IMG/VR virus record: IMGVR_UViG_3300042197_001060
Location: 1-64,000 of that record
Reading direction: 5' to 3' (one strand)
Length of the DNA stretch: 64,000 bases
DNA from: a virus
Every line of letters begins with the position of its first letter. Position 1 is the stretch's first letter. Both the position numbers and the translations under genes were made by a program. This document shows positions 2,351 to 29,970 of the stretch, one piece after another. The notes under the pieces are model-generated. The model made no database searches. It had not been told where the DNA came from and saw only the letters and a program-made list of their open reading frames with translations.

Positions 2351-2953
2351 TTATTTTATGTGTTCTTCTGGTTTACAAACTTTTTCTAATTGTCCCAAAT
2401 TATATTTTGGTTTTTCATTTAAAAATATAAAACATCTCCACTCTTTTTGTTCTTCAAAATAAATATGTTTTTCCATATAGGCAGGTATTGCAGCATTAGT
2501 TGGAATTCTTCTTACTGGATTATCGAAATGAACGGTGATTAAAACTGTCAGATTTTCTTTATCATCCCATTTTCTTTCCAATTCTTCCAACAATCTCCAC
2601 TCACCACGATTTAGGTATTGGTCTTGAAGGATTGAATTTAGGTAAGAAAAAGTTTGTTTTAGATTCTCCATATTATCGGAAAATGTTGCTGCAGGTGCAC
2701 CATGCCCTTTATCGTAGATGTTTTTATAATAATCATCCGCATCCGATGTTTTGATGTTGGGTTCTTTGTAAAAATCCATTGAACCTCTGTTTACATTCGT
2801 TGGTCTATTAGTTGAACGATACTTAATCCATAGTGGTTGTTCTAAATCTTGTGAGTAAAGTACTTCAAATACATTGTTTTTTACTTTAACATCCTGTGCA
2901 AATGAAAGGAATGAAACAATTAAGAAACTAATAAGGGTAATGGTTTTTTTCAT
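2351..2953 (-). CDS. Secreted DNA/RNA non-specific endonuclease (DRGH/NUC1 family)
   Basis: A sugar-nonspecific nuclease with a signal peptide (residues 1-20, ending LSFAQ). The active-site motif reads DKGHGAPAA at 81-89, with H84 as the likely general base in place of the usual DRGH. The metal-binding region LNRGEWRLLEELER (114-127) carries the expected Asn and Glu. At 200 aa it is a compact family member. The signal peptide sends it out of the cytoplasm, so it may degrade extracellular or periplasmic nucleic acid, from competing phages, the host or a biofilm. It sits at the downstream edge of the exported-protein block. Confidence 0.85.
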   Translation of the reverse strand: MKKTITLISFLIVSFLSFAQDVKVKNNVFEVLYSQDLEQPLWIKYRSTNRPTNVNRGSMDFYKEPNIKTSDADDYYKNIYDKGHGAPAATFSDNMENLKQTFSYLNSILQDQYLNRGEWRLLEELERKWDDKENLTVLITVHFDNPVRRIPTNAAIPAYMEKHIYFEEQKEWRCFIFLNEKPKYNLGQLEKVCKPEEHIK

Positions 2954-2954
2954 A

Positions 2955-3194
2955 TTATTTATTTAATTTATTTAAATATCTGGTGAAGTAGATGTATACC
3001 CCAAAAAATGAACCCGCTATACAATACAAAACGAAGTTCGCTTTCCATAAACTTCCCGTCAGTAGCAGCAGGGAATATTGTACGGCATCGAACCCAAACG
3101 GATTGAAGAATAGTGCCAGCATCAATGCCATATCTTTGTACATCAGTACTCTCGTACTTTTGTTCTTTAATTTGTTTATTGTCTTTACTATCAC
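2955..3194 (-). CDS. Small membrane protein (GTG start; frame partly uncertain)
   Basis: The frame encodes up to 79 aa, with two or three hydrophobic segments and a NPFGFDA turn that look like a real membrane protein. Its only upstream start in frame is GTG 3192-3194; an internal ATG would give about 62 aa. An overlapping ATG frame (2968-3204) has a convincing hydrophilic start but a poor C-terminus. The true product may start in that frame and shift, or the sequence may carry a one-base error. Confidence 0.55.
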   Translation of the reverse strand: MIVKTINKLKNKSTRVLMYKDMALMLALFFNPFGFDAVQYSLLLLTGSLWKANFVLYCIAGSFFGVYIYFTRYLNKLNK

Positions 3195-3241
3195 CTTCGT
3201 CCATGTATGTGTTTATTTAGTTAAAAATAGGTAACCTTTGG

Positions 3242-3251
3242 TATAAATATA
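3242..3251 (-). promoter_or_regulatory. TATATTTATA element (class II, possible late promoter)
   Basis: The minus strand reads GTATATTTATACC about 40 bases before the membrane gene, in one of the few gaps of this block. It matches the -7 element TAnnTTTG but has no TTG at the class I distance. Similar elements precede several structural, lysis or surface genes here. Confidence 0.4.
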
Positions 3252-3265
3252 CAACCATATTATTT

Positions 3266-4669
3266 TTAGAGAATCATTCTCGAACCAATCAATATATTAC
3301 TTAAAAAAGGTGAACCTGCGGCAGTATTACCACTCAATTTGTAGTTAATACTGAAACCAAATCTTTTACTTATTTTATAATCAAAGGAACTTCCTAATAA
3401 AAATCCTATATTTCTATTTACCGTCGTAGTTTTACTTACGGTATTGTACGCTATTGGTGATAACATAGTAAATACTTGAGGTGATATTGTTAATTTTTTA
3501 CTATATTGATACGGTTTAGTCCAAAACCCAACTGCTGATGTTGATAAACTATATCCATATTTACCAGTTGCATCTTTAATTAAAAGGTTAATCACCCCCA
3601 AATTATAACCAAGCACTCCATATTTTTGAGTTGGTTTAATATGAGTATATCCTAATAAATTCATATAAGTCCCATTTAAGTACGCAAATGCAGATGAATA
3701 TGAATGTATAGTATTTAACTTGCCTTCTGAAAAATCTAATTTAGTATATCCGCCACCTACAATAAATGTTTTCAAATCACTCATAACAACTGTGGTTGCG
3801 GAGTAACTTTCATCACCAGCCATAGATGCTTTAGATATACCTATCGTAGCAGATTGTAACCATCTACCATCCGGAGATTCTATTGTAGATAAATCGGATG
3901 CTAATAACATTGGATTGGAAGAAGCTGCTTTTTCTTTTTTCTTTTCTTCTTTTTTCTCTTCTTTAGATTCTTCTTTCTTTTCCTCTGATTTTGTTTCTTC
4001 TTTCTTTTCTTCAGATTTACTTTCCGATTTACTTTCTTCTTTTGTTTCGGATTTGCTTTCAGAAGATTCTGATTTGCTTTCTGATTTTGTTTCACTTTTT
4101 TGTTCCGATGAAGATGATGAACTACTACTCTTATTTTCGGAAGATGAAGATGAACTGCTCGATGAAGATGAACTGCTTCCACCACTATTCGATGACGTGG
4201 ATGAACCACTTGCTAGTGGTGGTGTTGAACTGCCACTCGCAGGTGGTGGTGTTGTAGGTGGTGGTGTTGTAGGTGGTGGGGGTGGGACAACTACGGTAGA
4301 TGCCGCAGATGAAGCAGCTGAACTTGCAGCTTGTGATGCCGCATTACTTGCCGTTTGTGCCACTGCATTTGTAACCGTTTGTTGCACTACTGGAGTATTG
4401 ATAATAGGACAAGTAAATGCTTCGTATGTAGCTTTAGTTGTAAATAACCAAGTTTGAACTACTCCCATTTGTACTTCCAATGGTGTAAAAGTTCTTACTT
4501 GATTATAAAATGAAACGGTAGCATTGCCATTTATTATAGTAGTTGTAGCTAGTTTTGTTTCACCCGTACATCTATCTATAAATGTTTGGGTATAGGTCTG
4601 CCCTTCGGCTTTAAATGCCGTTATAAATGTAACAATTAATAGTAAAATGGATACTACCCATTTTTTCAT
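3266..4669 (-). CDS. Predicted outer-membrane beta-barrel protein with Ser/Lys/Glu linker
   Basis: 467 aa with a signal peptide (about residues 1-24, ending AEGQ), an N-terminal region of about 80 residues, a Pro/Ser then Ser-only then Lys/Glu-rich low-complexity stretch (about 140-250), and a C-terminal part of alternating short beta-strands ending in an aromatic/hydrophobic strand. The C-terminal half resembles the 299-aa protein at 9907-10806: both have SPQ(V/I)F-M, then S-D(Y/W)KI(S/T)KRF, then a closing strand, so they are probably paralogous outer-membrane barrels. It overlaps the stop of the lipoprotein gene by one base. Phages rarely encode such proteins; a receptor-masking or adhesion role is inference. 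Confidence 0.8.
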   Translation of the reverse strand: MKKWVVSILLLIVTFITAFKAEGQTYTQTFIDRCTGETKLATTTIINGNATVSFYNQVRTFTPLEVQMGVVQTWLFTTKATYEAFTCPIINTPVVQQTVTNAVAQTASNAASQAASSAASSAASTVVVPPPPPTTPPPTTPPPASGSSTPPLASGSSTSSNSGGSSSSSSSSSSSSSENKSSSSSSSSEQKSETKSESKSESSESKSETKEESKSESKSEEKKEETKSEEKKEESKEEKKEEKKKEKAASSNPMLLASDLSTIESPDGRWLQSATIGISKASMAGDESYSATTVVMSDLKTFIVGGGYTKLDFSEGKLNTIHSYSSAFAYLNGTYMNLLGYTHIKPTQKYGVLGYNLGVINLLIKDATGKYGYSLSTSAVGFWTKPYQYSKKLTISPQVFTMLSPIAYNTVSKTTTVNRNIGFLLGSSFDYKISKRFGFSINYKLSGNTAAGSPFLSNILIGSRMIL

Positions 4670-5100
4670 TAGTTGTTTTGAATTCTACTTCGAGTGGGTT
4701 GATTATTTGTTGGAGTAGTTATTCTTTGCTGAATTCTACTCGGTTGTGAATTCCGTTGATTAGGTCTCGCTTCTAATCGTTGTCTATTTGGGTATACATT
4801 ATCAGTTGATGTTCTACTAGGTCTTTCTCCAATCGTAGTTTTTCTCTCATATCTTGTAGGTTGCTGTGGTTGAACTCTGTTTGGGTAAACATAGTATGGG
4901 GGGATTGCTCTATATAAGTATAAATTGCGATAGTTCCATCCCCAATCATTCCAACTCCAATACGGATTATTACCCCAACCTAAACCAAATGTGGTAGTAT
5001 TACAATCACAATCTCTATATACTACTCTCTGTTGAGTAGAACATGAGGTAAATAAAATTGTTGCAATTAAAATTACGAGAAATATGATTATCTTTTTCAT
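4669..5100 (-). CDS. Lipoprotein (143 aa)
   Basis: The N-terminus is a signal sequence ending in a lipobox (LFTSC, Cys about 20), so the product should be lipid-anchored and, in Bacteroidota, may reach the outer membrane. The mature part has a Trp/Gly/Tyr-rich segment (WGNNPYWSWNDWGWNY) followed by a basic Arg/Gln/Pro/Thr-rich tail. No family is recognised. Its stop overlaps the start of the beta-barrel gene, pointing to linked expression. Confidence 0.8.
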   Translation of the reverse strand: MKKIIIFLVILIATILFTSCSTQQRVVYRDCDCNTTTFGLGWGNNPYWSWNDWGWNYRNLYLYRAIPPYYVYPNRVQPQQPTRYERKTTIGERPSRTSTDNVYPNRQRLEARPNQRNSQPSRIQQRITTPTNNQPTRSRIQNN

Positions 5101-5120
5101 AGGTATATTATCTAGTTACC

Positions 5121-5130
5121 TATAAATATA
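5121..5130 (-). promoter_or_regulatory. TATATTTATA element (class II, possible late promoter)
   Basis: The minus strand has TTTTTATATTTATAGG about 20 bases before the lipoprotein start, in a 40-base gap. There is no class I TTG element upstream. Confidence 0.45.
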
Positions 5131-5140
5131 AAAAAATAAA

Positions 5141-5854
5141 TTACATACTGATATTATTAATATCTTCTAAATGCAATTTAAACTTTTTATCGTAAACTAT
5201 ATACGAATTATTTTCAATCCAATCCCCACAGTTTAAATAGTGTATATTTGTATTTTTAATTTTTATTTTCTTATTCTCTGGTTTATGTATATGACCACAT
5301 ATTACACCTTTCAATCCACGAGAATGAGCTTGATATGCTAATTGTTTTTCAAAATCAGTAATAAACTTTACTGCTGATTTTACTTTATCCTTAACCATTT
5401 TGGAAAAGGATTTCTTATATCCAAATCGTTTAAGGGTTCTATCTATTATTAGAGCAAGTTCGTATCCATATGAACCAATTATACCTAACCATTTGAGTTG
5501 AACTATGCCATCGTATAAATCACCATGAGTTATTAGGTATCCATTCCATTCCCATTCATCTACAATTTTTATATTACCAAAATCGTAAGGAGAATACGAG
5601 CGAAGAAAATCATCGTGATTTCCTGTCACATAAACTACTTGGGTTCCTTTGTTTGAATATGCAAGGATTTTACGAATAACATCAGTACATTCTTTGTTCC
5701 AGTAAAATCTTTTCTTCAATAACCACCCATCTATAAAATCACCAACGATGAAAATTTGTTCGGGTTGTTCTTTGTTTAAGAGTTTGTAAAGTTCTTTTGG
5801 GTTTGACCCTCTTGAACCTAGATGTACATCTGAAATGAAAAGTGTTTTATTCAT
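5141..5854 (-). CDS. Metallophosphoesterase, LpxH/UDP-2,3-diacylglucosamine hydrolase-like
   Basis: 237 aa, full length for the calcineurin-like phosphoesterase fold, with all metal motifs: DVHLG (9-13), GDFIDGW, GNHDD, and GHIHKP near the C-terminus followed by NCGDWIEN. The order and the GDFIDGW/NCGDW pairing are those of the LpxH-like branch that removes UMP from UDP-diacylglucosamine in lipid A synthesis. A phage copy next to a glycosyltransferase and a membrane protein suggests it alters host lipopolysaccharide, though another phosphodiester substrate is possible. It overlaps the next upstream gene by 4 bases. Confidence 0.85.
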   Translation of the reverse strand: MNKTLFISDVHLGSRGSNPKELYKLLNKEQPEQIFIVGDFIDGWLLKKRFYWNKECTDVIRKILAYSNKGTQVVYVTGNHDDFLRSYSPYDFGNIKIVDEWEWNGYLITHGDLYDGIVQLKWLGIIGSYGYELALIIDRTLKRFGYKKSFSKMVKDKVKSAVKFITDFEKQLAYQAHSRGLKGVICGHIHKPENKKIKIKNTNIHYLNCGDWIENNSYIVYDKKFKLHLEDINNISM

Positions 5855-6141
5855 GATTCTCTCTTCAAAAAGTTAAAAACAATAAATCTAATGTTTTCAA
5901 ACTTTGTCATTGCTATCCATTTACCCAATACACTACCACCAATATAGAAAGGAATAACTAACCAATCACCTTCAAATAATCTATCTAACGAAAAGTAAAC
6001 CGATGCAAGTGAGATTAGGTTAATCCAAACGGAGTTTATTAAGAGTGCTTTTAATTTATTTTCATAAGTAAACTTAATTTCCATTACTTTGAAAATGTTA
6101 AATAGTATTTGAAATGCTAAAACTATTAAATAATATTTCAT
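5851..6141 (-). CDS. Small inner-membrane protein (96 aa)
   Basis: Three hydrophobic segments separated by short charged loops, with YIGGSVLGKWIAM in the third. The general look is that of small DUF2179/UPF0316-type membrane domains, but I cannot claim homology. It is wedged between the glycosyltransferase (overlap at 6138-6141) and the phosphoesterase (overlap 5851-5854), so a role in the same envelope modification is plausible. Confidence 0.75.
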   Translation of the reverse strand: MKYYLIVLAFQILFNIFKVMEIKFTYENKLKALLINSVWINLISLASVYFSLDRLFEGDWLVIPFYIGGSVLGKWIAMTKFENIRFIVFNFLKRES

Positions 6142-6845
6142 ATCCAGTATCCTATATCTTTGGTAAAATAATTTTTGTTATTCTTATTAAGGTAATTCTT
6201 AATTGTTATATAGATGAAGTTGAGGTATCCCATTTTTTTAAATCTCCTATCATCTTGTCCAACATACCTATTAATAATTTTAAAGTACTTTTTTGGTATC
6301 TGTTTACTTAACCAAAAATCTTCGGAGTTAGTTAGGGTTTCATCAAATCCTCCTAACTTATTAAATACATTTGTGTGTATAAAAAAATAACAACCTGTTG
6401 AAAAGGACTCAGGCATTATATCTCTAATAAAATTAAATGATTTCCATATCAACTCGGACTTTAGATTTGTTGATAATGAAGTTTGTTTACACGTCACTAT
6501 ACTATGTGTATCTTTGTATTTTAGTGTTTCTAAAAAAATGTCATTTTCTATCAAAATACTATCAGCATCAATAAAAAGTATATAAGGTGTTTTAACTAAT
6601 TTAGCTCCATTGTTTCTCCCAACTGAAACACTACCGCCTTTTACTAATTTAATGTTTAGGTTTTTAAAGTCATTTTTTGCTCTATAAACTTTACCCAACG
6701 TACCATCGGTTGAATTACCATCTGCGATTATTACTTTTATCTTTCCTTCAAATTGTTGATTAGATATAAACTTTAATGTGTTGTATATATACTTTTCCTC
6801 ATTATAAGAAGGTATTACAATTGTTATTAGTTTACCTATATCCAT
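6138..6845 (-). CDS. Glycosyltransferase family 2
   Basis: 235 aa with the GT-A hallmarks: IVIPSYNEEKYI at the N-terminus, ADGNSTDGT for nucleotide-sugar binding, and the metal-binding DxD as IDADS near residue 100. No membrane anchor is visible. It starts a three-gene cluster with the membrane protein and LpxH-like phosphoesterase, which suggests transfer of a sugar to a lipid or envelope acceptor. The acceptor is unknown. Confidence 0.85.
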   Translation of the reverse strand: MDIGKLITIVIPSYNEEKYIYNTLKFISNQQFEGKIKVIIADGNSTDGTLGKVYRAKNDFKNLNIKLVKGGSVSVGRNNGAKLVKTPYILFIDADSILIENDIFLETLKYKDTHSIVTCKQTSLSTNLKSELIWKSFNFIRDIMPESFSTGCYFFIHTNVFNKLGGFDETLTNSEDFWLSKQIPKKYFKIINRYVGQDDRRFKKMGYLNFIYITIKNYLNKNNKNYFTKDIGYWI

Positions 6846-6866
6846 ATTAATAAGTATAAAAAAAAA

Positions 6867-6888
6867 AAGGAGAAAACTTCTCCCTTTT
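6867..6888 (-). terminator. Rho-independent terminator after the gene at 6892-7101
   Basis: GGAGAA (6869-6874) pairs with TTCTCC (6878-6883) around a 3-base loop. On the minus strand the stem is followed by about ten T residues; on the plus strand it is followed by five. It lies just past the 3' end of the gene at 6892-7101 and should separate it from the glycosyltransferase. Confidence 0.8.
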
Positions 6889-6891
6889 TAG

Positions 6892-7101
6892 TTAAATTAC
6901 TATTCGTTTATCTATATTGTGTTTTTCGTAAAAGTTATTAAGTGTTTTAATTAAATCAATAATCATATCTTTTGCTTCCTTTTGTGATTTCACATCGGCT
7001 CTTACAAAAGTTGTTTTGGGTAAAATGATAGATATTACTTCCCTAGCAGCCCCACCTGTTACTGATACTACTTTTTCATCAATAGGTTTCTTTACTGGCA
7101 T
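6892..7101 (-). CDS. Small hypothetical protein (69 aa)
   Basis: A soluble mixed alpha/beta protein with no signal peptide and no recognised family. It starts 7 bases after the CsgG-like gene and ends right before a strong terminator, so it closes that short transcript. Confidence 0.7.
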   Translation of the reverse strand: MPVKKPIDEKVVSVTGGAAREVISIILPKTTFVRADVKSQKEAKDMIIDLIKTLNNFYEKHNIDKRIVI

Positions 7102-7108
7102 ATAAACA

Positions 7109-7828
7109 TTAATTTGGAAATATACCTTTCTTAATCATTCTATCCAAAATTCTAGCACAAGCAATATCCAATGCTTTTTTAGTTGCAATTGAAATCGTTG
7201 ATTGATTGAATTTCACTTCATCAACAGTCGCATCGGATAAGAATGTCAATTCTCTTGTTGTAGTTGCTTCACCCAATCCAGATGCTCCGAATACTACACC
7301 AGTCTCTGCATTAGTAAAACGAACTTGCAAACCGATACGAGTTACCATCATATTCTTAACTCCATCCTTTAGATTTACGGTCTCATCCTCTGATACTGAA
7401 TAATCGTAACATTCAATTGTCACAAAGTATTCCGCTAAATTTATTTTACCAAACCCATCCAATGCGTTTTCAGCTATTCCTGCTTGCGATGCTTGGAATT
7501 GTTTAACCATTCGGTTCTTAATTTCGGTTTTATCTTCGGTAAATTTGAAACGATTGAGGTTTTCTAAATATTCCATTGAGATATTAGCCACACCCAAACC
7601 TACTCTTTTCTCTTTGAGTTCTGGATATAGTTCATACATCTCATCACTAATACCTGCTTTTAGAATTTGAATTGGAATTTGACGACCTTCATAATCTAAA
7701 AATTGAGAGATGTCAATAGCAGTTTCAAATGATGCTTTGTATTGTTCAGTCTTTGTAGTTCCTATGGTTTGAGCTACCGCAACACTGCTTAACAAACAAA
7801 AACTTAATAATGCGAATAATTTTTTCAT
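7109..7828 (-). CDS. CsgG-like exported protein
   Basis: 239 aa with a signal peptide (residues 1-19, ending AVAQ) but no lipobox. The C-terminal half (GLQVRFTNAETGVVFGASG, then a Thr-rich strand, then KFNQSTISIATKKAL and a helix to the end) follows the plan of the CsgG/HfaB family, which form or assist outer-membrane export pores for surface fibres. The final segment is echoed in the protein at 14741-15394 (KFNQTSLSNALKKAS), suggesting duplication. The role is uncertain; CsgG proper is a lipoprotein and longer. Confidence 0.6.
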   Translation of the reverse strand: MKKLFALLSFCLLSSVAVAQTIGTTKTEQYKASFETAIDISQFLDYEGRQIPIQILKAGISDEMYELYPELKEKRVGLGVANISMEYLENLNRFKFTEDKTEIKNRMVKQFQASQAGIAENALDGFGKINLAEYFVTIECYDYSVSEDETVNLKDGVKNMMVTRIGLQVRFTNAETGVVFGASGLGEATTTRELTFLSDATVDEVKFNQSTISIATKKALDIACARILDRMIKKGIFPN

Positions 7829-7843
7829 ACATATGTCTTTTCT

Positions 7844-7853
7844 TATAAATATA
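7844..7853 (-). promoter_or_regulatory. TATATTTATA element (class II, possible late promoter)
   Basis: TTTTATATTTATAAG on the minus strand directly follows the T-run of the terminator at 7854-7881 and precedes the CsgG-like gene by about 16 bases: one transcript ends and the next begins within 30 bases. Confidence 0.5.
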
Positions 7854-7881
7854 AAAAAAGGGAGAAATTATAGTTTCTCCC
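7854..7881 (-). terminator. Rho-independent terminator before the CsgG-like gene
   Basis: GGGAGAAA (7860-7867) pairs with TTTCTCCC (7874-7881), a perfect 8-bp stem with a 6-base loop, followed on the minus strand by seven T residues. It ends the transcript carrying the holin-like genes. Confidence 0.85.
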
Positions 7882-7884
7882 TTA

Positions 7885-7922
7885 AAATATATCTGCCCTT
7901 CCTACAGTTAAAAGATATATTT
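7885..7922. repeat. 10-bp inverted repeat downstream of the holin-like gene
   Basis: AAATATATCT (7885-7894) and AGATATATTT (7913-7922) are perfect inverted copies 18 bases apart, starting directly after the stop codon of the gene at 7924. It could protect the 3' end of the mRNA or bind a dimeric protein. There is no T-run, so the terminator proper is the adjacent hairpin. Confidence 0.5.
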
Positions 7923-7923
7923 A

Positions 7924-8169
7924 TTATCCTTCTTCTTCAGATTTTCCTTTTTTTCCGAAAATCTTACCAGCTTCGGCAATACCGAATGAACCTAATGTAA
8001 TGATTACAAATGAATTGAAAATAGTATCACTAATTTCTAGTGTATTTCCCATAATACCAGTTACAATATCTGCACCAGCAAATATCGCCATAACTGCGAA
8101 TGAACCAAATCCAACGATTGATTTTTCGTTGTAATCATTGTTGTCTTTGAAAATGTCTTTAAATGCCAT
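7924..8169 (-). CDS. Small two-helix membrane protein, holin candidate
   Basis: 81 aa with an amphipathic N-terminus, two hydrophobic segments (about 19-40 and 50-68) and a charged C-terminal tail (KKGKSEEEG). Size and layout fit a class II holin, which would time lysis by opening the inner membrane. It is followed by two more small membrane proteins, and the endolysin lies 7 kb away, so the assignment is by shape only. Confidence 0.55.
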   Translation of the reverse strand: MAFKDIFKDNNDYNEKSIVGFGSFAVMAIFAGADIVTGIMGNTLEISDTIFNSFVIITLGSFGIAEAGKIFGKKGKSEEEG

Positions 8170-8206
8170 AGTTTTTAATTTAAATTGTTAATACTATGTA
8201 ACCCAT

Positions 8207-8830
8207 TTATCCCACCATTTCGGCGTCTTCGTCTTTTATCTTTCCACACTTCAAACACTCTTCATCACCATCACCATCTATATCACCCCAAATATGTTCA
8301 CATTGTCTGTGTGCAAAGTAAACATCAATCTTACCATCACCATCGAAATCAATACCATCCATTGTACCATCACCATCTTCATCCACTTCTACACCAACTT
8401 TAGTTTGTTGTTCGAAAGGACTTTCAATAGTTTTAGGATTATTTGGTTCTGATTTTACATTTTGAATTGCTGCGGTAAATGCTTCTGGAATAATTGGAGA
8501 ATATTGTTTAGGTTCAGAATCTTTCATATCTGCAGTATTACTTAAACTAACACCATCTTCCTCATCCATTTTCTGAACTAACATTTTATCCTTATCAGTA
8601 TCACTAAACCAATAGTCAATGATTTTACCATAAGAACCAATGAATGCTCCTAATAATAATAAGAGAAGTTCTTTCCATTCCTGCCCAACAACAGTTTCTG
8701 TGTGAGTGGAGATTAAAATTCCAAATGTAGTAAACATAAATGTAATTAAGACGATTAAGGTCATTAACCATCTTCTATTCATCATTGAGTTTAATAAATC
8801 TTTAAATCCGCTTGGTTGTTGATTATTCAT
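8207..8830 (-). CDS. Membrane protein with Asp-rich calcium-loop-like tail, holin-like N-terminus
   Basis: 207 aa. Two membrane segments (about 19-41 and 51-74) end in YGKIIDYWFSDTDK, a form seen in holin-like phage membrane proteins. After an acidic linker the tail has three DxDGDG-type loops (DEDGDGTMDG, DFDGDGKID, DIDGDGDEE), like calcium-binding EF-hand or dockerin loops, and a possible zinc site (C-x-H then CLKC). Holins do not normally carry such a domain, so this may be a calcium-sensing or envelope-anchoring protein. Confidence 0.65.
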   Translation of the reverse strand: MNNQQPSGFKDLLNSMMNRRWLMTLIVLITFMFTTFGILISTHTETVVGQEWKELLLLLLGAFIGSYGKIIDYWFSDTDKDKMLVQKMDEEDGVSLSNTADMKDSEPKQYSPIIPEAFTAAIQNVKSEPNNPKTIESPFEQQTKVGVEVDEDGDGTMDGIDFDGDGKIDVYFAHRQCEHIWGDIDGDGDEECLKCGKIKDEDAEMVG

Positions 8831-8836
8831 AGTTAA

Positions 8837-9151
8837 TTACCATTTAGGGGCTTCTTCTTTAAACTCATCACCTTCTTTTTTCTTCGCCTTTTCCACTGGC
8901 TTTTCTACAACTTTTTCTCTTTCAATGATTTTAGTTGTTCCACCACCTGCTGATTGTTGCTGCTCATTTGAGTTTGTGATGTTAATTACTGGAGCTGCTT
9001 GTTGAGCTGGAACAGGTTCATCACCTCCACCTGTTATTTGGGTTATACCCCATGTACCTAAACCCATAACTGCGGTTGTTAGTACACCTATAATTGTCTT
9101 TTTTAATCCAGACAATGTCCCATCGTTGTTGTCTTCTGCTTCTTCTGACAT
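8837..9151 (-). CDS. Single-pass membrane protein (104 aa)
   Basis: A short acidic N-terminus, one hydrophobic segment (about 18-38) and a long hydrophilic tail with a Lys/Glu-rich helix (EREKVVEKPVEKAKKKEGDE). The topology fits a holin partner or inner-membrane spanin, but no motif decides. It lies 6 bases upstream of the preceding membrane gene in the same transcript. Confidence 0.6.
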   Translation of the reverse strand: MSEEAEDNNDGTLSGLKKTIIGVLTTAVMGLGTWGITQITGGGDEPVPAQQAAPVINITNSNEQQQSAGGGTTKIIEREKVVEKPVEKAKKKEGDEFKEEAPKW

Positions 9152-9176
9152 TTTATTACAGTTTTTGTTTATTAAA

Positions 9177-9548
9177 TTATAATTTGTTAAAATCTACTAT
9201 TCCTAATTGATTGTTTTTTAAATCAAATAAGCCAATTCTATATGCAGATGACGGTAATGCGGTGGTGTATACCTTTAAGATATTATCACCTACCTTTACA
9301 TTCATCGTTTCTTTGGATACTACCCTATTGGATATATCAAAAATCTTAATCGTAACTGGTTGTGCAATATCTACTTTAACATTCATTGCAACTTCGGTAG
9401 TTACGAATGATGTCTCTAATTTGATGCCAACTGAATTTTGTATTTTCAGTTCTTCATTAACTTCTGTAATTGGTTGTTCGATTATAGTATCATCGATGCA
9501 TCCACCCAATCCAAATATTAGTAATACTACTATAAGTATTCTTTTCAT
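9177..9548 (-). CDS. Lipoprotein with secretion-tail-like beta domain (123 aa)
   Basis: Signal sequence with lipobox (GLGGC, Cys about 17). The C-terminal 60 residues (VTIKIFDISNRVVSKE, then GDNILKVYT, then AYRIGLFD) closely follow the pattern of the type IX secretion C-terminal sorting domain of Bacteroidota (I-IYDISG-LV ... G-N ... L-SG-Y-V). Here it sits behind a lipid anchor rather than at the end of a large secreted enzyme. The gene at 9550-9903 looks like a sister copy. Confidence 0.65.
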   Translation of the reverse strand: MKRILIVVLLIFGLGGCIDDTIIEQPITEVNEELKIQNSVGIKLETSFVTTEVAMNVKVDIAQPVTIKIFDISNRVVSKETMNVKVGDNILKVYTTALPSSAYRIGLFDLKNNQLGIVDFNKL

Positions 9549-9549
9549 T

Positions 9550-9903
9550 TTATTTAGTTATTATTAATGTTTTTCCAATTTCGGTTTTCGTAACATCTTC
9601 CAATAACAAATATAAATATCGTTTTTCTAATGAATTCGTATAAATCTTCTTTACATTTTCACCAGAAGTTCCCTTAAATCTTTCTCTACTAATAACTTGT
9701 CCACTTTCTTTATCAATTAAAGTTAATGTATAAGTTCCATCGGATGGTAAATCAAAATGCATATCTTGACCATTAACCACTCTATTTTCTTTCAAACTAA
9801 ATATTTTTTGAGTAGTAGGTAGTGGGGGTGTAGGTAATTCAGGTTCGGTACAAGATACCACAACTCCTACACAAACCAACAATATAATTTTTATCCACTT
9901 CAT
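9550..9903 (-). CDS. Lipoprotein, sister of the preceding (117 aa)
   Basis: Lipobox (VVVSC, Cys about 18), a Pro-rich spacer, and one small beta-sandwich-like domain (YTLTLIDKESGQVISRERF, then GENVKKIYTNSL, then YLYLLLED). The order of strands matches the lipoprotein at 9177-9548. It is packed one base before that gene and three bases after the beta-barrel gene. Confidence 0.65.
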   Translation of the reverse strand: MKWIKIILLVCVGVVVSCTEPELPTPPLPTTQKIFSLKENRVVNGQDMHFDLPSDGTYTLTLIDKESGQVISRERFKGTSGENVKKIYTNSLEKRYLYLLLEDVTKTEIGKTLIITK

Positions 9904-9906
9904 ATC

Positions 9907-10806
9907 TTAAAATTGAAAGTTTGTCCCTATCATAAACATTAACGGGTTACTCTTTTTATATCCAACTGATTCACCTAATTTATCCCAAGTTGTATTATAT
10001 CTGATATTAGTGTTTAATATAAATCTTTTAGTTATTTTCCAATCAATTGATGTACCATAATATAAGTCCAAATTGAAATCATTTTTATAACCAAAATCAG
10101 ATTCCCCATCTTTGAAATCTATATACACATCACTCATAGCAAATATTTGTGGTGAGATATTAACTCTCTTTGTTTTAAGGGTATAGATGTACATTAACAT
10201 TCCTTTGTAAGTAGTTTGTGATGATGCCGGCACAATTGGATATATGTTTTTTACCCAATTACCATTTTCATCAACAATATATTTTCCTTCCCAAGCACCT
10301 TCAGATTCTCCCCAAAATGTTTTACCTGCAGTTAAACTATATCCAAATGTTCCAAACTTTTTAGTTCTAAACACATCTACGAATGATAGGTTAATATCCT
10401 TTTGAAAATCAAAATCAGTTGAATAAAATGTTTGTAAAGTAGTTGTTCTCTTTTCGGAATTTCTACTAAATCCATATCCCACACCATAATAATTCCATAT
10501 AGGATTTATTGATGCTGTAAATGAGTGTCCCCATTGTCCATTCATTGATGATTTACTATATCCTAAATTAAGAGTAGTAGATACCTGCTTTCCAATTATA
10601 CCAACTGAAAGGTTTGATGAGGATAATACATCTTTTGAAAAATCTACATAAGATTGCAATATGCCTACATCGTTCCAATCATCACTTTCTCCAAATAATT
10701 CTTTTGGTGATAATTGTAGAGTATCAGGTATTGATGGAGTTTGAGAATACCCCCAAATTTGTACTGTGAGTATAAAAATAAGAGTAATTATAAACTGTTT
10801 CATCAT
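9907..10806 (-). CDS. Predicted outer-membrane beta-barrel protein (299 aa)
   Basis: A signal peptide (about 1-22, ending WGYSQ) is followed by a protein made largely of alternating beta-strands with aromatic belts, closing with NPLMFMIGTNFQF, whose terminal Phe is typical of outer-membrane barrels. It is paralogous to the C-terminal half of 3266-4669. The start is ATGATG; the stop of the lectin-like gene overlaps it. It lies between the lectin-like protein and two lipoproteins, as surface-complex genes of Bacteroidota often do. Confidence 0.75.
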   Translation of the reverse strand: MMKQFIITLIFILTVQIWGYSQTPSIPDTLQLSPKELFGESDDWNDVGILQSYVDFSKDVLSSSNLSVGIIGKQVSTTLNLGYSKSSMNGQWGHSFTASINPIWNYYGVGYGFSRNSEKRTTTLQTFYSTDFDFQKDINLSFVDVFRTKKFGTFGYSLTAGKTFWGESEGAWEGKYIVDENGNWVKNIYPIVPASSQTTYKGMLMYIYTLKTKRVNISPQIFAMSDVYIDFKDGESDFGYKNDFNLDLYYGTSIDWKITKRFILNTNIRYNTTWDKLGESVGYKKSNPLMFMIGTNFQF

Positions 10807-13088
10807 TTTAATATTACTTTTAATTGTTTTCCATCTTTATTAACTGCATCGGTTGTTGATATTGATGTTAAACCTAATATATCCGTTGTGTTATCCGTTG
10901 GTGTAAATATTATTTTATATTCAGTTGTTTTGTCTAATATAGTAGAACCATCAGAAACCAATGAACCAACATTAATAAAACTACCTCTGTTAATTCCATA
11001 GTTAGTAGGGTTTCCTTTTGTAGTAAATTCTACCTTTTCAAATTTTAATTTACTATTATCATAATTTAATTGAAATTGAGTTCCAACTAATTCTTGTTGT
11101 AGTGGGTCTACTGATAGTGTTACAATAATACTATTACCTACAATCTCACTCATTATTATCACATTTACTTCATTTGTAATCGAATTACTCATTACACTCA
11201 TACTTCTAACCGAATTACTACTAACACTACTTACACTTTGTTGTGCTGAATGTGAAAGGTTTACATCGCCCAACCAAGTTACATTTATATTGTATGTGTT
11301 ATTTAAACTACCTAATGTAAACGGAATTAGATTACGAGTTGAATTGAATTTAGTTCCCCAATTTGTTGTTGTTATCGCATCGTAATCTGATTTATTATAT
11401 AACTTCATCAAATAAGTTAATGCGGTAGATTGTGAAAGTGATTGAACGCCTGTAAGATGTTGTAATAATTTGTATGTATCTGATTCGTTAAATATACCAT
11501 TACCATCCACATCTGCATTTAAATACTGAATACCATTTGTTAATCCCATCCCACTTTGATTTCCAAATATACCACCATCAGCCAATTCCTTAAATGCTAA
11601 ATACACATCCGATACACCAACGATACTATTATATAATGTGTTTAGTTCCGTTTGATTAGAATGTGTTAATTCCATTCCATGTGGTTTGTATGCTAATATT
11701 GGTGAAAAAGTAAATTCAGCCTGCAATCCATAAAATCCATTACCTGCTCTTATATTTTGTGCGAAAGATGAACCACTAAAATTAAATTGTGTTGCGGTAT
11801 AAATGTAAACTTCAGTCCAACCATTTGAATCATACGAATTAAATGTAACAGGCCCGTTCCATAAATCAAATAGTTGTAAGCTTGAAATCATAGATGGTTG
11901 TGATACAATACTATTTACTTCTCTACTATCGATACCAACTCTATATCTTTGGTTTGTAGCATCGTATTCATAAATCACACACCACTCTACTTGCCCAGAA
12001 GTTGTTGTTGCTCTAACACCATTTAAAACTTTTGCAGTATCCAATAAACTTGTCAAATCAACTTTACCCAATCCACTTAATTGTCTAGCAGTTCCGTTTA
12101 CTGCATTCCAATTGTTATTTGTATATGTGTATCCTTTTGCTGTGAATTTAGTTTCATCTACATTACTACCAAAATCAACATTGAATGTTGCTCTCAATAA
12201 TTCTCCGTTTGAGTGAGTTACACTATTGGTATAAAATTCAGTAAATGTTGCATCATCGGGATTAGTCCAAGTTCCAAATTCAACTACATAAGCACAAATA
12301 AAATGATTAGGTAAATCGTTCCATTGAGAACCACCTCCCCATTTAGTTACTGCGTAATCTTCGTTACCGGCATTGTTTGGTTCACCACCTGCCCAGTTAT
12401 TATATTGTCCAACTATGTTTCCAGCAGTTTGCCCGTTTGATGTTTTGATTAGAGTTCCAGCTTCAGGCCCTGCATCAATTCTCCATTGTCCTTCAACAAC
12501 TTCATCGGTAAGAGCAAACCAAATACTAGATTGAGGAACATTGGCGAATATAAAAGCATCTTCCGAAGCAGATGTTATTGTTACCAAATATCCCGTCTGT
12601 CCTTTGAATGTTTGTTGAGATGATAATGTTCTTGCATTTATATAAGTTGCTCCTGTTGATATAGGTCTATAAAAGTGTCCATTAACTCCATTGTAAAAAT
12701 ATCCAACAGGATTTACAGTTGCAGCTACTGATAATTGAACATTACCTACTACTGAACCCGTATTTATTTTTAGGGATGCCAATGCCGTATTAATATCAGC
12801 CATTGTTCCAGTTACTACTAAACGAGTTTTATTACCTGCTAAAGTAAATCCACTTGCAGCAGTTAGACCGATTGTTGTAGTTAGATAAAATGTAGTATTA
12901 GTCGATGGATTGATTAAACTGATTGATGTTAGAAGTGTTGCCGTTGAATTAAATCCACTTAATACAAATCCACTTCCATCTTGCGCAGTTGTGGATGGTA
13001 TAAAAGATTTAGAGTCCGGAGCAGATACACTCTGTCCGAACCCTAAAAATGATATAAATAAAAATAATGTAACTAATAAGTGTTTCAT
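10803..13088 (-). CDS. Exported C-type lectin-like / dockerin-like / cohesin-like protein
   Basis: 761 aa from ATG 13086-13088 (a TTG three codons upstream is less likely). In order: signal peptide (1-19, ending LGFGQ); a cadherin-like repeat (about 30-125); a C-type lectin domain (about 130-272) with both calcium and sugar motifs, EPN at 236-238 and WND at 256-258; a beta-rich middle; an EF-hand or dockerin-like loop DVDGNGIFNESD (526-537); and a cohesin-like C-terminal domain (about 640-761). EPN specifies mannose or GlcNAc-type sugars in animal lectins. Exported by the host, it could bind glycans on neighbouring cells or on the infected cell. The combination is unusual for a phage. Confidence 0.8.
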   Translation of the reverse strand: MKHLLVTLFLFISFLGFGQSVSAPDSKSFIPSTTAQDGSGFVLSGFNSTATLLTSISLINPSTNTTFYLTTTIGLTAASGFTLAGNKTRLVVTGTMADINTALASLKINTGSVVGNVQLSVAATVNPVGYFYNGVNGHFYRPISTGATYINARTLSSQQTFKGQTGYLVTITSASEDAFIFANVPQSSIWFALTDEVVEGQWRIDAGPEAGTLIKTSNGQTAGNIVGQYNNWAGGEPNNAGNEDYAVTKWGGGSQWNDLPNHFICAYVVEFGTWTNPDDATFTEFYTNSVTHSNGELLRATFNVDFGSNVDETKFTAKGYTYTNNNWNAVNGTARQLSGLGKVDLTSLLDTAKVLNGVRATTTSGQVEWCVIYEYDATNQRYRVGIDSREVNSIVSQPSMISSLQLFDLWNGPVTFNSYDSNGWTEVYIYTATQFNFSGSSFAQNIRAGNGFYGLQAEFTFSPILAYKPHGMELTHSNQTELNTLYNSIVGVSDVYLAFKELADGGIFGNQSGMGLTNGIQYLNADVDGNGIFNESDTYKLLQHLTGVQSLSQSTALTYLMKLYNKSDYDAITTTNWGTKFNSTRNLIPFTLGSLNNTYNINVTWLGDVNLSHSAQQSVSSVSSNSVRSMSVMSNSITNEVNVIIMSEIVGNSIIVTLSVDPLQQELVGTQFQLNYDNSKLKFEKVEFTTKGNPTNYGINRGSFINVGSLVSDGSTILDKTTEYKIIFTPTDNTTDILGLTSISTTDAVNKDGKQLKVILK

Positions 13089-13089
13089 A

Positions 13090-14739
13090 TTATTCAATGA
13101 TTAAATCTATTTTGTTACCCCTTGCATCAACTGCATCTGAAAGAACAAAGAAGAATAATCCTGCTGTATTTGATAATTGAACCTTTGGTGTGAATATTAA
13201 TTTGTAAGGAGTACCGGTTTTGATTCTAGCAGTTTTTAGCTGGTCAATAGAACCAAATGTCAATCTACCACCATCGTTGGTTGAGAAATTGGTTACGGTA
13301 TTTCCTGCATCAAATATAATGTTATCCAAATTTAATTTATTATTATCATAATCCATAATAACTTGTAATCCTGCTAATTCTTCTTTTGTTAAATTTGTAG
13401 TTAATACAACCTTATTATTTTCCAAAGTAATTGATACATTTAATTTAGCAGTTTCTAAATCTTCAGTTCTATATGCCATTATAGATGGTACACTCATAGA
13501 TTTTTTTAAATTCACCTCACCATTAATTGAATTTGTGAATTGACCAGCAGTTATTCTACTTGCAATTTCAGTTGGGTCTGATGAATGTGACCAGTTTAAA
13601 TCACCACCCCATGCAAATACTGCGTAAACCTCTTTAATTGGTGTATCAATAGTTACCTTATACTTTGGAATACCATCTAACCAACTTTGATTTAGTAAAC
13701 CACTAAACCATCTCCAAGATGTTGCAGTGTTTGTTGGTATAAATGCGTTTGTAGATACATCTTGCCCCATTACATACGCAAAAGAATAATATGAATCTGA
13801 TTCATTAAATGTATCATCGTTTTTGGTAATGTTACCCACTTTCTTTTCCAAATTAGAGTATGTAAAGAAGTTTGGAGTTCCACTAATATCGGTTTGTGAA
13901 TGCCCTAAAAAAGCCTTATATGAATCAGATACTGTAATTACATTGTTCATCCAAGCTTTTGATGATGCAGGTGATACAAATACACCAACCTCATCCCCAA
14001 CTTTTACTTGCGTTGTGAAAAGTGCTTCACCACTCGAATCTAATGGTAATTGTGCAATTGATTGTTGTGAAAAATCAATAGTACCATCCGTTTTCAACTT
14101 CATTAACTGAACATAATGGTCTGTAATAGCGTATCCTTGTGGGAATAGTACTCTAACTTTAAATTGAGATGTGTTACCCGTTACATTTGTTAATGATAAA
14201 CTTGTAGCATTACGGGTGATAGGTGCGATATTTGCAGATGCATCACTAATAGCATACGCCAAATCCAACTTATGAATATCATTATAAGTGTTCTGGTCTT
14301 TCAATACAAATTTTTGAGTTGCTATATCACCATTGATTGCAGCATCGGTTCTTTGAACAGTCAATTGTCCAACATTCCAATCGGCATTTACTGCATACCC
14401 CCAAGGTGTAGTTTGATATTGTTCATATAAGCTAGTAGCTGCTTTATTTGGAGCTGGGGTGAATTTGTAGTTATCCCATCCAGTATAGAATGTTTGAACT
14501 GAATTACCTTGTGAGAATACCGTACTGTTTGGCACCATTGCAAGTGCTTTGTTATTGAACGAATATCTCAACCAAAAATAACGAGGAGTTGTAGTTCCTC
14601 TATCTATGGTATATTTTACAGTCAGAGTATCACCAACTTGATAAGGAGGTGCAGGTGTTACAGATTGTGACACGGTTATTTGACCGAAAGATATTAGAGA
14701 TATTAAAAATATCCCTAAAAACAATAAGAATTTTTTCAT
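13090..14739 (-). CDS. Exported beta-rich protein sharing the dockerin-like and cohesin-like C-terminus
   Basis: 549 aa from ATG 14737-14739, two bases after the upstream stop; signal peptide ends ISFGQ. The C-terminal half parallels the lectin protein next door: NDDTFNESDSYY versus DGNGIFNESDTYK, then AWGGDLNWSHS versus TWLGDVNLSHS, then a cohesin-like domain (about 430-549). The N-terminal half differs and lacks the lectin fold. The two look like one scaffold carrying different heads, and their adjacency suggests a complex. Confidence 0.75.
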   Translation of the reverse strand: MKKFLLFLGIFLISLISFGQITVSQSVTPAPPYQVGDTLTVKYTIDRGTTTPRYFWLRYSFNNKALAMVPNSTVFSQGNSVQTFYTGWDNYKFTPAPNKAATSLYEQYQTTPWGYAVNADWNVGQLTVQRTDAAINGDIATQKFVLKDQNTYNDIHKLDLAYAISDASANIAPITRNATSLSLTNVTGNTSQFKVRVLFPQGYAITDHYVQLMKLKTDGTIDFSQQSIAQLPLDSSGEALFTTQVKVGDEVGVFVSPASSKAWMNNVITVSDSYKAFLGHSQTDISGTPNFFTYSNLEKKVGNITKNDDTFNESDSYYSFAYVMGQDVSTNAFIPTNTATSWRWFSGLLNQSWLDGIPKYKVTIDTPIKEVYAVFAWGGDLNWSHSSDPTEIASRITAGQFTNSINGEVNLKKSMSVPSIMAYRTEDLETAKLNVSITLENNKVVLTTNLTKEELAGLQVIMDYDNNKLNLDNIIFDAGNTVTNFSTNDGGRLTFGSIDQLKTARIKTGTPYKLIFTPKVQLSNTAGLFFFVLSDAVDARGNKIDLIIE

Positions 14740-14740
14740 T

Positions 14741-15394
14741 TTATTTTTCCTCAAATAGATTAGTTATAAGTTTTTCCGAAGCTTTCTTTAAGGCGTTACT
14801 TAAAGATGTTTGGTTGAACTTACCACCTTCATCTACTATGAGAGTTGACATAGAGATTTCGGATGATGATTCTTCAACCATAACCTCTTTTGCCTTTTTG
14901 CCATCCTTATAAAGTGTTCCCTTTAATCTGATGACAACTTCTTCTTCATTTTTGTGAAATACGGAGATGTTTTTCTTTGTTGTTAAAACATCTAAATATA
15001 CAATTTGAACTGCCAATTTGTTTGGGGCATTTGGAGTTAAATTTAATCCTTTTTCTTGCAAATATTCTTCTAATATGTTTTTAACACCAAATTCTAATTG
15101 TCTGTTTCCGGCTAATTTTCCAATTTTTACATTATTTGTTACTGATTCAATCCAAATATGGTCATCTGCGTTATACCAAATATTTTGAGGTGAATCTTTG
15201 TGTCCACCGGAAATTGTATAATCGAACCAAGTTACAATAGATTGGGTTAATTCTCGTTGACCAGTCACCTCCAACGCTACCATAAAAATTTGGAAACAGA
15301 GTGCGGTTGATATGAATAAAAGTCCAAACCAACCAAGTATGGTCAGTATGTAATCACCTACGGATGGTAATAAAACTGTTTTTATATAATTCAT
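14741..15394 (-). CDS. Membrane-anchored CsgG-like protein (217 aa)
   Basis: One N-terminal membrane segment (about 13-41), then a soluble domain from about 70 onward. The end (IVDEGGKFNQTSLSNALKKA) matches the end of the CsgG-like protein at 7109-7828 (KFNQSTISIATKKAL), and an LAVQIVYLDVL strand followed by TLYKDGKKAKE is typical of CsgG or YajG-type domains. It heads the transcript that runs into the exported proteins, so an export or assembly role is likely but unproven. Confidence 0.6.
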   Translation of the reverse strand: MNYIKTVLLPSVGDYILTILGWFGLLFISTALCFQIFMVALEVTGQRELTQSIVTWFDYTISGGHKDSPQNIWYNADDHIWIESVTNNVKIGKLAGNRQLEFGVKNILEEYLQEKGLNLTPNAPNKLAVQIVYLDVLTTKKNISVFHKNEEEVVIRLKGTLYKDGKKAKEVMVEESSSEISMSTLIVDEGGKFNQTSLSNALKKASEKLITNLFEEK

Positions 15395-15447: not shown

Positions 15448-15457
15448 TATAAATATA
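15448..15457 (-). promoter_or_regulatory. TATATTTATA element (class II, possible late promoter)
   Basis: TTATATTTATATG on the minus strand lies between the endolysin stop and the membrane-anchored CsgG-like gene, about 55 bases before its start. It could start the whole exported-protein transcript. Confidence 0.45.
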
Positions 15458-15461: not shown

Positions 15462-16295
15462 TTATCCTAATAAATGATAATATTCTTTAAAATGTTTTAT
15501 TCTATCTGCTAATCCAATAGTTCCACCATTTACTCTTTTAGTAATAGATGTTACTACTGCATCAGTTGACCCACCATCGGCCAATTTGTTCAGTCCATTT
15601 TTAGACCAAAACCATGCTGCTGATAGTAATGCATATTTCCCACTTACCACATCAGGATTAGAAGTAATATTTTCTCCGATTGCAGTACCGAATTGGGTAT
15701 AATTATCCTTTCCTGTCAATTGGATATATCCTCTGCCGCGAAACTTATATCCATCACCACTTGCTTCATCGCCATTTGCCATACGATTTGCATATACTTT
15801 GTTAGCAATCTTCTCCGGCTTTCTTTCGTAAGGTAAAGCTGATTCTAAAGTTGGAAAATATTTCTTAAAAATACCATTCAAACCTTTTGCAGAATAGTTT
15901 AGATTTTCTTGTGTTGCTCTGAATCCACCACTTTCGTGTCCACATTGTGCAAGAAAGTGTGCCAATCTCAATGGAGTATTGATTTGGAATTTAGCCGCAG
16001 TATTAGGAATCATTGAGATTACTGCATCAGGAATATGTCCTTTTAGTTTTTCCAACTTCAATGATCCTGAAGATACAATTGGTGCAGATGGTGTATGTGT
16101 TGGTGCGTTTCCTCCCATTATTTTTGCCCAAGTTGCCGGCCCTACAATACCATCGGGTGTTAAACCATTTTTTGCCTGCCATTCTTTTACGGCTGCTTCG
16201 GTTTTAGGTCCAAAGTTAGTTACCGCAGGTGAAATACCTAATTTCTCCTGCATTAATTTTACGTTTTCGTTGTTATCTCCTTTTTTAAGTAGCAT
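15462..16295 (-). CDS. Endolysin: peptidoglycan-binding domain plus GH19 muramidase/chitinase
   Basis: 277 aa without a signal peptide. Residues 1-60 form a PG_binding_1 domain (MLLKKGDNNENVKLMQ ... DGIVGPATW). Residues 85-277 form a glycoside hydrolase family 19 domain: GHESGGF with catalytic Glu121, the second acid in QENLNYSA (Glu130), and GYKFRGRGYIQLTG, the family's substrate-cleft signature. It would cleave the peptidoglycan sugar backbone at the end of infection, after a holin opens the membrane. Confidence 0.92.
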   Translation of the reverse strand: MLLKKGDNNENVKLMQEKLGISPAVTNFGPKTEAAVKEWQAKNGLTPDGIVGPATWAKIMGGNAPTHTPSAPIVSSGSLKLEKLKGHIPDAVISMIPNTAAKFQINTPLRLAHFLAQCGHESGGFRATQENLNYSAKGLNGIFKKYFPTLESALPYERKPEKIANKVYANRMANGDEASGDGYKFRGRGYIQLTGKDNYTQFGTAIGENITSNPDVVSGKYALLSAAWFWSKNGLNKLADGGSTDAVVTSITKRVNGGTIGLADRIKHFKEYYHLLG

Positions 16296-22272: not shown

Positions 22273-23916
<1,644 letters not shown>

Positions 23917-29067: not shown

Positions 29068-29970
29068 TTAATTTATTTTATTTAATTCTTTCTGAAATAC
29101 ATTATATGATTTTTGTTTAAATTCTTCTTTTCTATCAATTCGTTTTATTATAGAATCATAATGAGTTCTATTTCTATAAATATAGTTTTCACAAACAATA
29201 AAATTTTTTAATTTGAATTGATGTATGTTTGCACCTGTTTGATTTAATTTTTCAATACCCCACATTAAAAATGTATCATCTGGCCCGTATGCTCCCATCG
29301 ATTCCGGCAATGGTATTCTATCTAATAGGGATTTTGATAAAAGGGTAAACCACCCAGCTCCAAATTTTGTTCTAGGTTGACCTGGTACATTATTAAAAAC
29401 GGTTTCCAATCCAACATCACCCACTTCACCACAATCTACAAACGGATTGTTTGTTTTACAATAATCCAATGGTTTATTTAAATAATTAGAATTAACTAAA
29501 CAATCCCAAGTCGTATCCCAATACTTAACAATTTCTGGTGTAATAAAATATTTATCAATATGTTTATCGGTTTCATTTAATCTATCAATACTTGCTTCCA
29601 TATAATACAATATTTTATCATCAAAACAAATATCTGTATCTAACCAAATAAAATGAGTTGCATCGGTAATTTCTTTATGTGCATATCTTTTACATTGAAA
29701 TGCTCCCATAACTTCTTCTCTAATTTGCATTACAGAACTACCCGCCCAATCGGTTAATGGTTTTAGTGAATTAAATCTATCTATAAAAAATTGCTTATCT
29801 ACTTTAGAATTTTCCCAATCAAATAGATAATCCGAAACTGAAAATGAAATATAAAATTCATAATTATCACCATCTATATGTTTAGATGCTTTATTCAAGT
29901 CGATTAATACTCTTTCTAAATCATCCAACTCATGTGGCATTACGAATGATGTAATAACTATTTTTTTCAT
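29068..29970 (-). CDS. Glycosyltransferase, GT-A fold (300 aa)
   Basis: A DxD-type metal site in IWLDTDICF (about 109-117), and the acceptor-side FGAGWF ... GPDDTFLMWG motif (about 235-244) of GT-A enzymes. No membrane segment. It overlaps the next gene by 4 bases. The donor sugar is unknown. Confidence 0.8.
   Translation of the reverse strand: MKKIVITSFVMPHELDDLERVLIDLNKASKHIDGDNYEFYISFSVSDYLFDWENSKVDKQFFIDRFNSLKPLTDWAGSSVMQIREEVMGAFQCKRYAHKEITDATHFIWLDTDICFDDKILYYMEASIDRLNETDKHIDKYFITPEIVKYWDTTWDCLVNSNYLNKPLDYCKTNNPFVDCGEVGDVGLETVFNNVPGQPRTKFGAGWFTLLSKSLLDRIPLPESMGAYGPDDTFLMWGIEKLNQTGANIHQFKLKNFIVCENYIYRNRTHYDSIIKRIDRKEEFKQKSYNVFQKELNKIN

Follow-up and report, generated by a model that had tools for sequence, protein, structure and literature searches.

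A conserved block of exported proteins in T4-like phages of aquatic Bacteroidota: a probable late module for adhesin display on the host surface

Why should a phage carry some 13 kb of consecutive genes for exported, host-style surface proteins? The block that raises this question lies at positions 2351–15394 of the window, by which is meant the whole 64-kb stretch analysed out of the 71-kb IMG/VR record IMGVR_UViG_3300042197_001060. Genes of the window are nearly all on the minus strand, and are designated below by their first coordinate (Table 1). A preliminary description made from the letters of the DNA had read the block as a programme either to rebuild the envelope or to make a surface adhesion device. 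The reading favoured here, with a probability of about 0.6, is a module that displays adhesins on the host surface late in infection; what it binds, and why, we infer.

The window encodes PolB, a UvsX-type recombinase, a gp32-like protein, DnaB, ribonucleotide reductase and GroEL. Read by sequence in this way, its source is a T4-like phage, and its long relatives are contigs of 202 to 336 kb with gp23 capsid genes. The host would belong to the Bacteroidota and is probably a Flavobacterium, because, among cultured phages, only Flavobacterium phage immuto (four records) has relatives of the 7109 and lectin proteins.

Export signals and conservation of the block

All genes of the block are on the minus strand, at the coordinates that the preliminary description had given. 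Export signals were scored with a home-made N-terminal classifier, the classes being signal peptide, lipobox and transmembrane segment. One of these was assigned to 14 of the 17 genes in the block and to 3 of the 67 genes outside (Fisher p = 1.3e-10), which bears out the richness in exported and membrane proteins that had been described. With signal peptides or lipoboxes alone, the counts were 11/17 and 3/67 (p = 1.9e-7). The calls are backed by conservation of the signals across orthologues: the signal peptide is kept in 122/123 lectin proteins, 30/30 nucleases and 137/142 homologues of 7109–7828, and the lipobox in most orthologues of lipoproteins 9177 and 9550 (Table 1).

Gene order was compared in 31 loci, selected solely for the presence of a 7109–7828 homologue with about 10 kb on either side. 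In all 31, a 14741 homologue, one or more proteins of the lectin/cohesin family and an 8837 homologue lie upstream of the 7109 homologue on the same strand. The 3266 barrel is found downstream in 26 loci, lipoproteins 9177 and 9550 each occur in 20, and homologues of 8207 and 7924 in 26 and 17, respectively. The order is that of the window in nearly all loci. The conserved core would consist of the genes from 14741 to 8837, plus 7109 and 3266.

Members of the 7109 family are encoded in at least 481 viral stretches, and the lectin in 93. A pattern scan of about 85,000 bacterial and archaeal species, in which distant members can be missed, found 7109 homologues in three places, and the family is therefore essentially viral. 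One place, CAIWBA010000291, is a gp23-bearing phage contig of 254 kb, and another is a short Flavobacterium contig carrying the same module. The third is an Ignavibacteriales contig (L170:8001-11871) where, by reading, a lipoprotein version of 7109 stands beside a second CsgG-type gene; this version may represent the cellular origin of the phage protein. A recent insertion of host genes, which the preliminary description had considered, is ruled out by the synteny of the core in 31/31 loci together with the near-absence of the 7109 family from the species scanned. None of nine proteins matched a PADLOC model at E ≤ 0.01, and no known anti-phage defence was recognised among them.

Adhesins, CsgG fold, export routes and timing

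The two large secreted proteins of the block are an adhesin with a C-type lectin head (764 residues) and its partner (554 residues). The lectin protein carries a signal peptide, and the motifs EPN and WND at residues 239 and 259. Its cohesin domain (PF00963, positions 10830–11144) scores 24.9 bits against a cut-off of 24.1. In domain tests across 37 phage records, cohesin matches were present in all 37, clustered at the module. The Lectin_C match (PF00059) of the window copy is slightly under the cut-off (21.6 against 22.6 bits; 3.7e-4) and that of 22 relatives is over it, so that the lectin-like protein of the preliminary description is upheld. Lectin_C was found in 23/37 records, in one place apiece and nowhere else in the 37, and no phage was seen to have a lectin head in common with one of its own tail fibres. 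EPN and WND are kept in 67/67 distinct lectin heads, which thus retain intact sugar and calcium motifs. Under the classical C-type lectin rule, these two motifs predict calcium-dependent binding of mannose-type sugars.

The head is swapped on a common backbone, PA14 standing in place of the lectin in some phages and LCCL being present in others. Among 72 homologues, a sample skewed to lectin heads as the lectin had been the query, 66 have a lectin head and 6 another. Within this sample, identity in the lectin region has a median of 0.72 and a 10th percentile of 0.11, the 10th percentiles of the dockerin and cohesin regions being 0.53 and 0.40. L083, the closest relative of the window, is mostly 90–100% identical to it in DNA. 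The lectin gene and barrel 9907 are 65–85% identical between the two, compared with 90–99% for the partner, the lipoproteins and 7109, a difference that, to judge from the sequences, reflects a joint replacement of the adhesin and barrel alleles. The C-terminal half of the partner, about 266 residues, is common to the lectin protein (profile comparison probability 99.8), and its AlphaFold2 (AF2) model, with a predicted local distance difference test score (pLDDT) of 79, has cohesins and pilin or adhesin β-sandwiches as best PDB matches. The duplication of families noticed in the preliminary description also holds for the paralogous lipoproteins 9177 and 9550 (99.1) and the homologous barrels 3266 and 9907 (96.3).

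Two CsgG-like proteins had been announced, of which 7109 stands by the fold of its predicted structure and 14741 does not. The AF2 model of 7109 (pLDDT 74) has CsgG (4uv2) as top PDB match, with a probability of 1.0 and E 3e-7, followed by PelC and other related folds; in BFVD it also matches a phage protein that bears the name CsgG. Against CsgG, the template modelling scores (TM-scores) are just ~0.45–0.5 and the root-mean-square deviation is high. A pore is not evident, because the window copy has no lipobox and the long hairpin of the model has a charged tip. Membership of curli was rejected at the sequence level: PF03783 (CsgG) was matched in 0/37 records at E ≤ 0.1 and 7109 has no Pfam match of any kind, PF10614 (CsgF) gave no match over the cut-off, and curlin repeats (PF07012) were found in 0/37 records. 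Being CsgG-like in fold only, 7109 would, on its model, act at most as a CsgG-type periplasmic assembly factor. For 14741, just a weak Lipoprotein_16 match was obtained, and its homology to 7109 was not shown, the profiles matching at a probability of 20 only. PDB profile searches with 7109, 14741, the partner and the lipoprotein families gave nothing useful.

The surface-lipoprotein signal of Bacteroidota (LES) is C-X-K-(D/E)2 (PMC5080379), and a pattern close to it, C-x-K-acid from the lipidated cysteine onwards, is present in 60/74 distinct sequences of the 9177 family and 47/69 of the 9550 family. The lipoproteins were rejected as free-standing type IX sorting domains, with weak PF18962 and DUF3244 matches only and 5% in a direct comparison. 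Type IX export is predicted for immuto, whose gp012–gp019 form a compact homologous version of the module. The nuclease gp012 is 45.9% identical to that of the window, and gp015 combines a cohesin (36.7 against 24.1 bits) with the type IX sorting domain TIGR04183 (44.8 against 23 bits), both over curated cut-offs. The CAIWBA010000291 phage encodes a 642-residue protein with cohesin and sorting domain, and homologues of 8837 and 8207 lie between it and the 7109 homologue. With Sec and lipoprotein signals, to which immuto adds a type IX signal, the products of the block would be unlikely to serve as ordinary virion fibres.

The block is apparently expressed late, if the motif TATATTTATA is read as a late promoter. 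It occurs within 100 nucleotides upstream of 4 of the 21 genes in or around the block, where 0.06 are expected, and each of these sites precedes the first gene of an apparent operon. Terminator-like hairpins follow 7924–8169 (7883-7858) and 6892–7101 (6889-6863). The window holds six exact sites, all on the coding strand, the opposite strand having none; two of the six lie outside the block, at 28351 and 29175. The core TATTTATA is present in 17/75 upstream regions, with no antisense occurrence, and the genes that it precedes include those for tail sheath, baseplate/fibre and head–tail adaptor in the closest relative. In other phages, the motif stands before 14741, 7109 and the nuclease in part of the loci and hardly ever before operon-internal genes, an exception being lipoprotein 9177, at one mismatch. 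The T4-type promoter TATAAATA was rejected, as it is not enriched in coding sense, and a sigma-70 promoter scan gave fewer matches than in shuffles.

Table 1 Features of the block and its borders, in window positions
Positions	Strand	Feature	Evidence
2351–2953	-	Exported Endonuclease_NS-type nuclease, optional	PF01223, 70.8 bits, over cut-off
3242–3251	-	Candidate late promoter TATATTTATA, nuclease operon	Exact, 37 nucleotides upstream of start at 3204
3266–4669	-	Predicted outer-membrane β-barrel, N-terminal domain and S/E/K-rich linker; core	26/31 loci, alignment
4669–5100	-	Lipoprotein, narrow distribution	Lipobox; 5 of loci searched
5121–5130	-	Candidate late promoter TATATTTATA, 4669/3266 operon	Exact, 20 nucleotides upstream of 4669–5100
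5141–6845	-	LpxH-like metallophosphoesterase, transmembrane protein and GT2 glycosyltransferase; passenger cassette	Profile matches
6892–7101	-	Small open reading frame after 7109	6 loci
7109–7828	-	Secreted CsgG-fold protein without lipobox; best-conserved protein of the module	AF2 model, synteny
7844–7853	-	Candidate late promoter TATATTTATA, operon 2	Exact, 15 nucleotides upstream of 7109–7828, right after terminator-like hairpin
7924–8169	-	Small protein with two transmembrane segments, holin-like topology	17/31 loci
8207–8830	-	Protein with two transmembrane segments, holin-like topology, acidic Ca-type repeats, Cys-containing tail	26/31 loci; topology from sequence
8837–9151	-	Small protein with one transmembrane segment, long polar tail; core	31/31 loci and immuto gp016
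9177–9548	-	Outer-membrane lipoprotein, paralogue of 9550	Lipobox in 93/98 orthologues
9550–9903	-	Outer-membrane lipoprotein, candidate surface lipoprotein	Lipobox in 89/99 orthologues
9907–10806	-	Predicted outer-membrane β-barrel, optional; swapped along with lectin in L083	Signal peptide, C-terminal aromatic
10803–13097	-	Secreted adhesin: C-type lectin head, dockerin-like repeat, C-terminal cohesin	Domain matches, motifs, swap in relatives
13090–14754	-	Secreted partner, C-terminal cohesin-like domain	AF2 model, C-terminus common with lectin protein
14741–15394	-	Membrane-anchored periplasmic protein (signal-peptide form in other phages), first gene of adhesin operon	Family alignment, 31/31 loci
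15448–15457	-	Candidate late promoter TATATTTATA, operon 1 (adhesin operon)	Exact, 53 nucleotides upstream of 14741–15394
15462–16295	-	GH19 endolysin with peptidoglycan-binding domain; neighbour, outside display core	Domain matches

The nuclease that had been proposed is confirmed by its domain match (Table 1). The 3266 family ends in L or F in 120/120 members. The acidic repeats of 8207–8830 are rich in DGDG, and the tail contains CxxC. The LpxH-like and glycosyltransferase enzymes of the preliminary description are present, though under the NCBIfam equivalog cut-offs; homologues of the phosphoesterase occur in 3/31 loci and of the glycosyltransferase in 4/31. The same slot in L083 (L083:11013-14683) encodes an 825-residue TonB-dependent receptor (Plug, OMP_b-brl_3) and a 398-residue lipoprotein. 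From this comparison, the LpxH-like, transmembrane and glycosyltransferase genes are read as a replaceable passenger and not as core. Envelope rebuilding is therefore unsupported as the core function, and of the two purposes first proposed for this export programme the adhesion device is the more likely.

Outside the block, PolB (45782–48346) has Microcystis phage Mel-JY01 as closest sequenced phage (49% over 100%), and Mel-JY01 has no match to 7109. A full-length GroEL is encoded at 22273–23892, and GroEL is also found near the block in several relatives. The region 29068–40117 holds a dense run of glycosyltransferase-like proteins with NAD-dependent epimerase-type and methyltransferase-like proteins, which suggests extensive glycan-related activity.

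Proposed course of display and rival explanations

Late in infection, the host Sec machinery would take the products of the block across the inner membrane, and the lipoproteins would be flipped onto the cell surface. In immuto and one other phage, host type IX secretion would carry the adhesins through the outer membrane. In the clade of the window, this step would perhaps fall to the phage barrels, with the CsgG-fold protein and 14741 acting as assembly factors in the periplasm. Once outside, the two large proteins would be linked through cohesin and dockerin-like modules, either mutually or with the lipoproteins, resulting in a calcium-dependent, mannose-type sugar-binding coat on the cell. 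The most likely benefit would be adhesion: an infected cell attached to its neighbours, or to particles rich in glycans, would release its burst among new hosts. Together, the data suggest that a large and widespread group of T4-like viruses of aquatic Bacteroidota redecorates the host surface shortly before burst.

Several points weigh against this scheme. No recognised type IX sorting domain was found in the window or in 35 IMG/VR relatives. The barrels 3266 and 9907 are predicted from their sequences, and the lipoproteins of the window lack the lysine of the export signal (CIDDTI in 9177, CTEPEL in 9550). Dockerin type I (PF00404) is matched in 34/37 records at E ≤ 0.01, mostly at the same place in the lectin gene, and is over the cut-off in 2 only; the cohesin–dockerin pairing, read from the domains, is putative. 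The predicted calcium-dependent binding of mannose-type sugars by the lectin heads rests on motifs. Finally, cultures of Melnitz, a phage with a CsgG pore, show no clumping (PMC9004378). Only tentatively would we go further and propose a viral display machine, in which the CsgG-fold protein, its membrane-anchored partner and the phage barrels export and polymerise cohesin/dockerin adhesins with swappable heads outside the cell, independently of recognised host secretion, and so control who sticks to the dying cell.

The close alternative to adhesion is receptor masking, or superinfection exclusion, which is possible at longer odds: the exported lectin and lipoproteins would cover the host glycan receptor, and progeny and competitors would skip the dying cell and its debris. 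The sugar-binding head, the surface signals and the swappable alleles fit such a role, and T5 Llp is a surface lipoprotein of a type known to block a phage receptor. Exclusion genes are usually early, however, whereas the motif evidence points to late expression, and the lectin head is no obvious mirror of a receptor-binding fibre, as Lectin_C is found nowhere else in these phages. For the variable type IX cargo of Cryophage, superinfection exclusion has been proposed by its authors (PMC7468147). Lysis, or disruption of the outer membrane, is a weaker rival and rather improbable. In that case the holin-like transmembrane proteins, the CsgG-fold protein, the lipoproteins and the adjacent endolysin would make up a lysis cassette, as proposed for the Melnitz CsgG pore (PMC9004378). 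The late motif and the two-segment proteins 7924 and 8207 are compatible with it, and the GH19 endolysin adjoins the block in the window and several relatives, but a lysin is near 7109 in 14/31 loci only. A pore is not evident in 7109, which lacks a lipobox, and lysis would give no obvious task to large lectin/cohesin proteins that are secreted and have swappable heads. No convincing holin family match was obtained for the transmembrane genes of the window, individual ones of which may still be holins, and the lipoproteins do not look spanin-like.

Decoration of virions after lysis, the exported proteins attaching to departing particles as accessory adhesion fibres, is improbable to a greater degree. 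The virions of other phages are known to bear carbohydrate-binding domains, and the promoter motif is common to virion genes, but virions assembled in the cytoplasm need no export signals, and no matching docking module was seen on virion proteins, since the cohesin matches cluster at the module. Least probable is that the module works at the surface to supply the infected cell with captured glycans or nutrients. TonB-dependent receptors occur in 8/37 phage records, several near the module; they are optional passengers, however, no glycan-degrading enzyme was seen in the block of the window, and late expression would leave little time for a benefit. If late adhesin display is correct, an abundant T4-like phage group (202–336 kb contigs, gp23) would rewrite the outer surface of aquatic Bacteroidota late in infection with allele-swapped heads, and cell aggregation, phage re-adsorption and competition would be affected.

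Comparison with known systems

The preliminary description could name no described system that matches, which does not hold, as relatives exist in pelagiphage curli genes and Cryophage type IX cargo. The principle of phage-encoded proteins on the host surface is therefore known. For the conserved module of lectin/cohesin adhesins, CsgG-fold protein, barrel and lipoproteins, no description was found in a search of the open-access literature.

Pelagiphages and Melnitz encode CsgG and CsgF, some with curlin genes, and sibling capture or adhesion, superinfection defence, uptake and lysis have been proposed for them (PMC7029224, PMC9004378, PMC9599517). These curli (type VIII secretion) systems resemble the present one in belonging to aquatic phages and in having a CsgG-type secreted protein within a multi-gene surface module. 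They differ in that CsgF, curlin repeats and a Pfam-level CsgG are absent here, where phages of Bacteroidota have instead lipoproteins, barrels and cohesin/dockerin adhesins headed by a lectin or PA14. Cryophage, a Bacteroidetes phage of 76 kb, likewise encodes highly variable type IX cargo secreted by the host, one with PA14; in the accessible part of the report, individual variable genes are described and no conserved multi-gene module of CsgG-fold protein, barrel and lipoproteins (PMC7468147).

Compared with the LES lipoproteins of Bacteroidota (PMC5080379), most homologues here share the C-x-K-(D/E)-type pattern, the window copies lacking its lysine. Cellulosomal systems have in common with the module the cohesin and dockerin-like domains and a partner model that resembles cohesins. 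In contrast to them, no enzymes are attached here, both module types occur in one phage chain and the pairing is putative.

Among the closest known systems is also that of Flavobacterium phage immuto (Immutovirus), which shares the nuclease, the C-type lectin, a cohesin with type IX sorting domain, 8837-, 7109- and 14741-like proteins and a 3266-like N-terminus. Unlike in the window, adhesin functions are spread over three genes, the sorting domain is recognised and no pair of 9177/9550 lipoproteins was detected. As a cultured pair with this compact version, immuto and Flavobacterium sp. LMO8 offer a direct way to test why genes for curli-like and type IX surface proteins are carried by phages.

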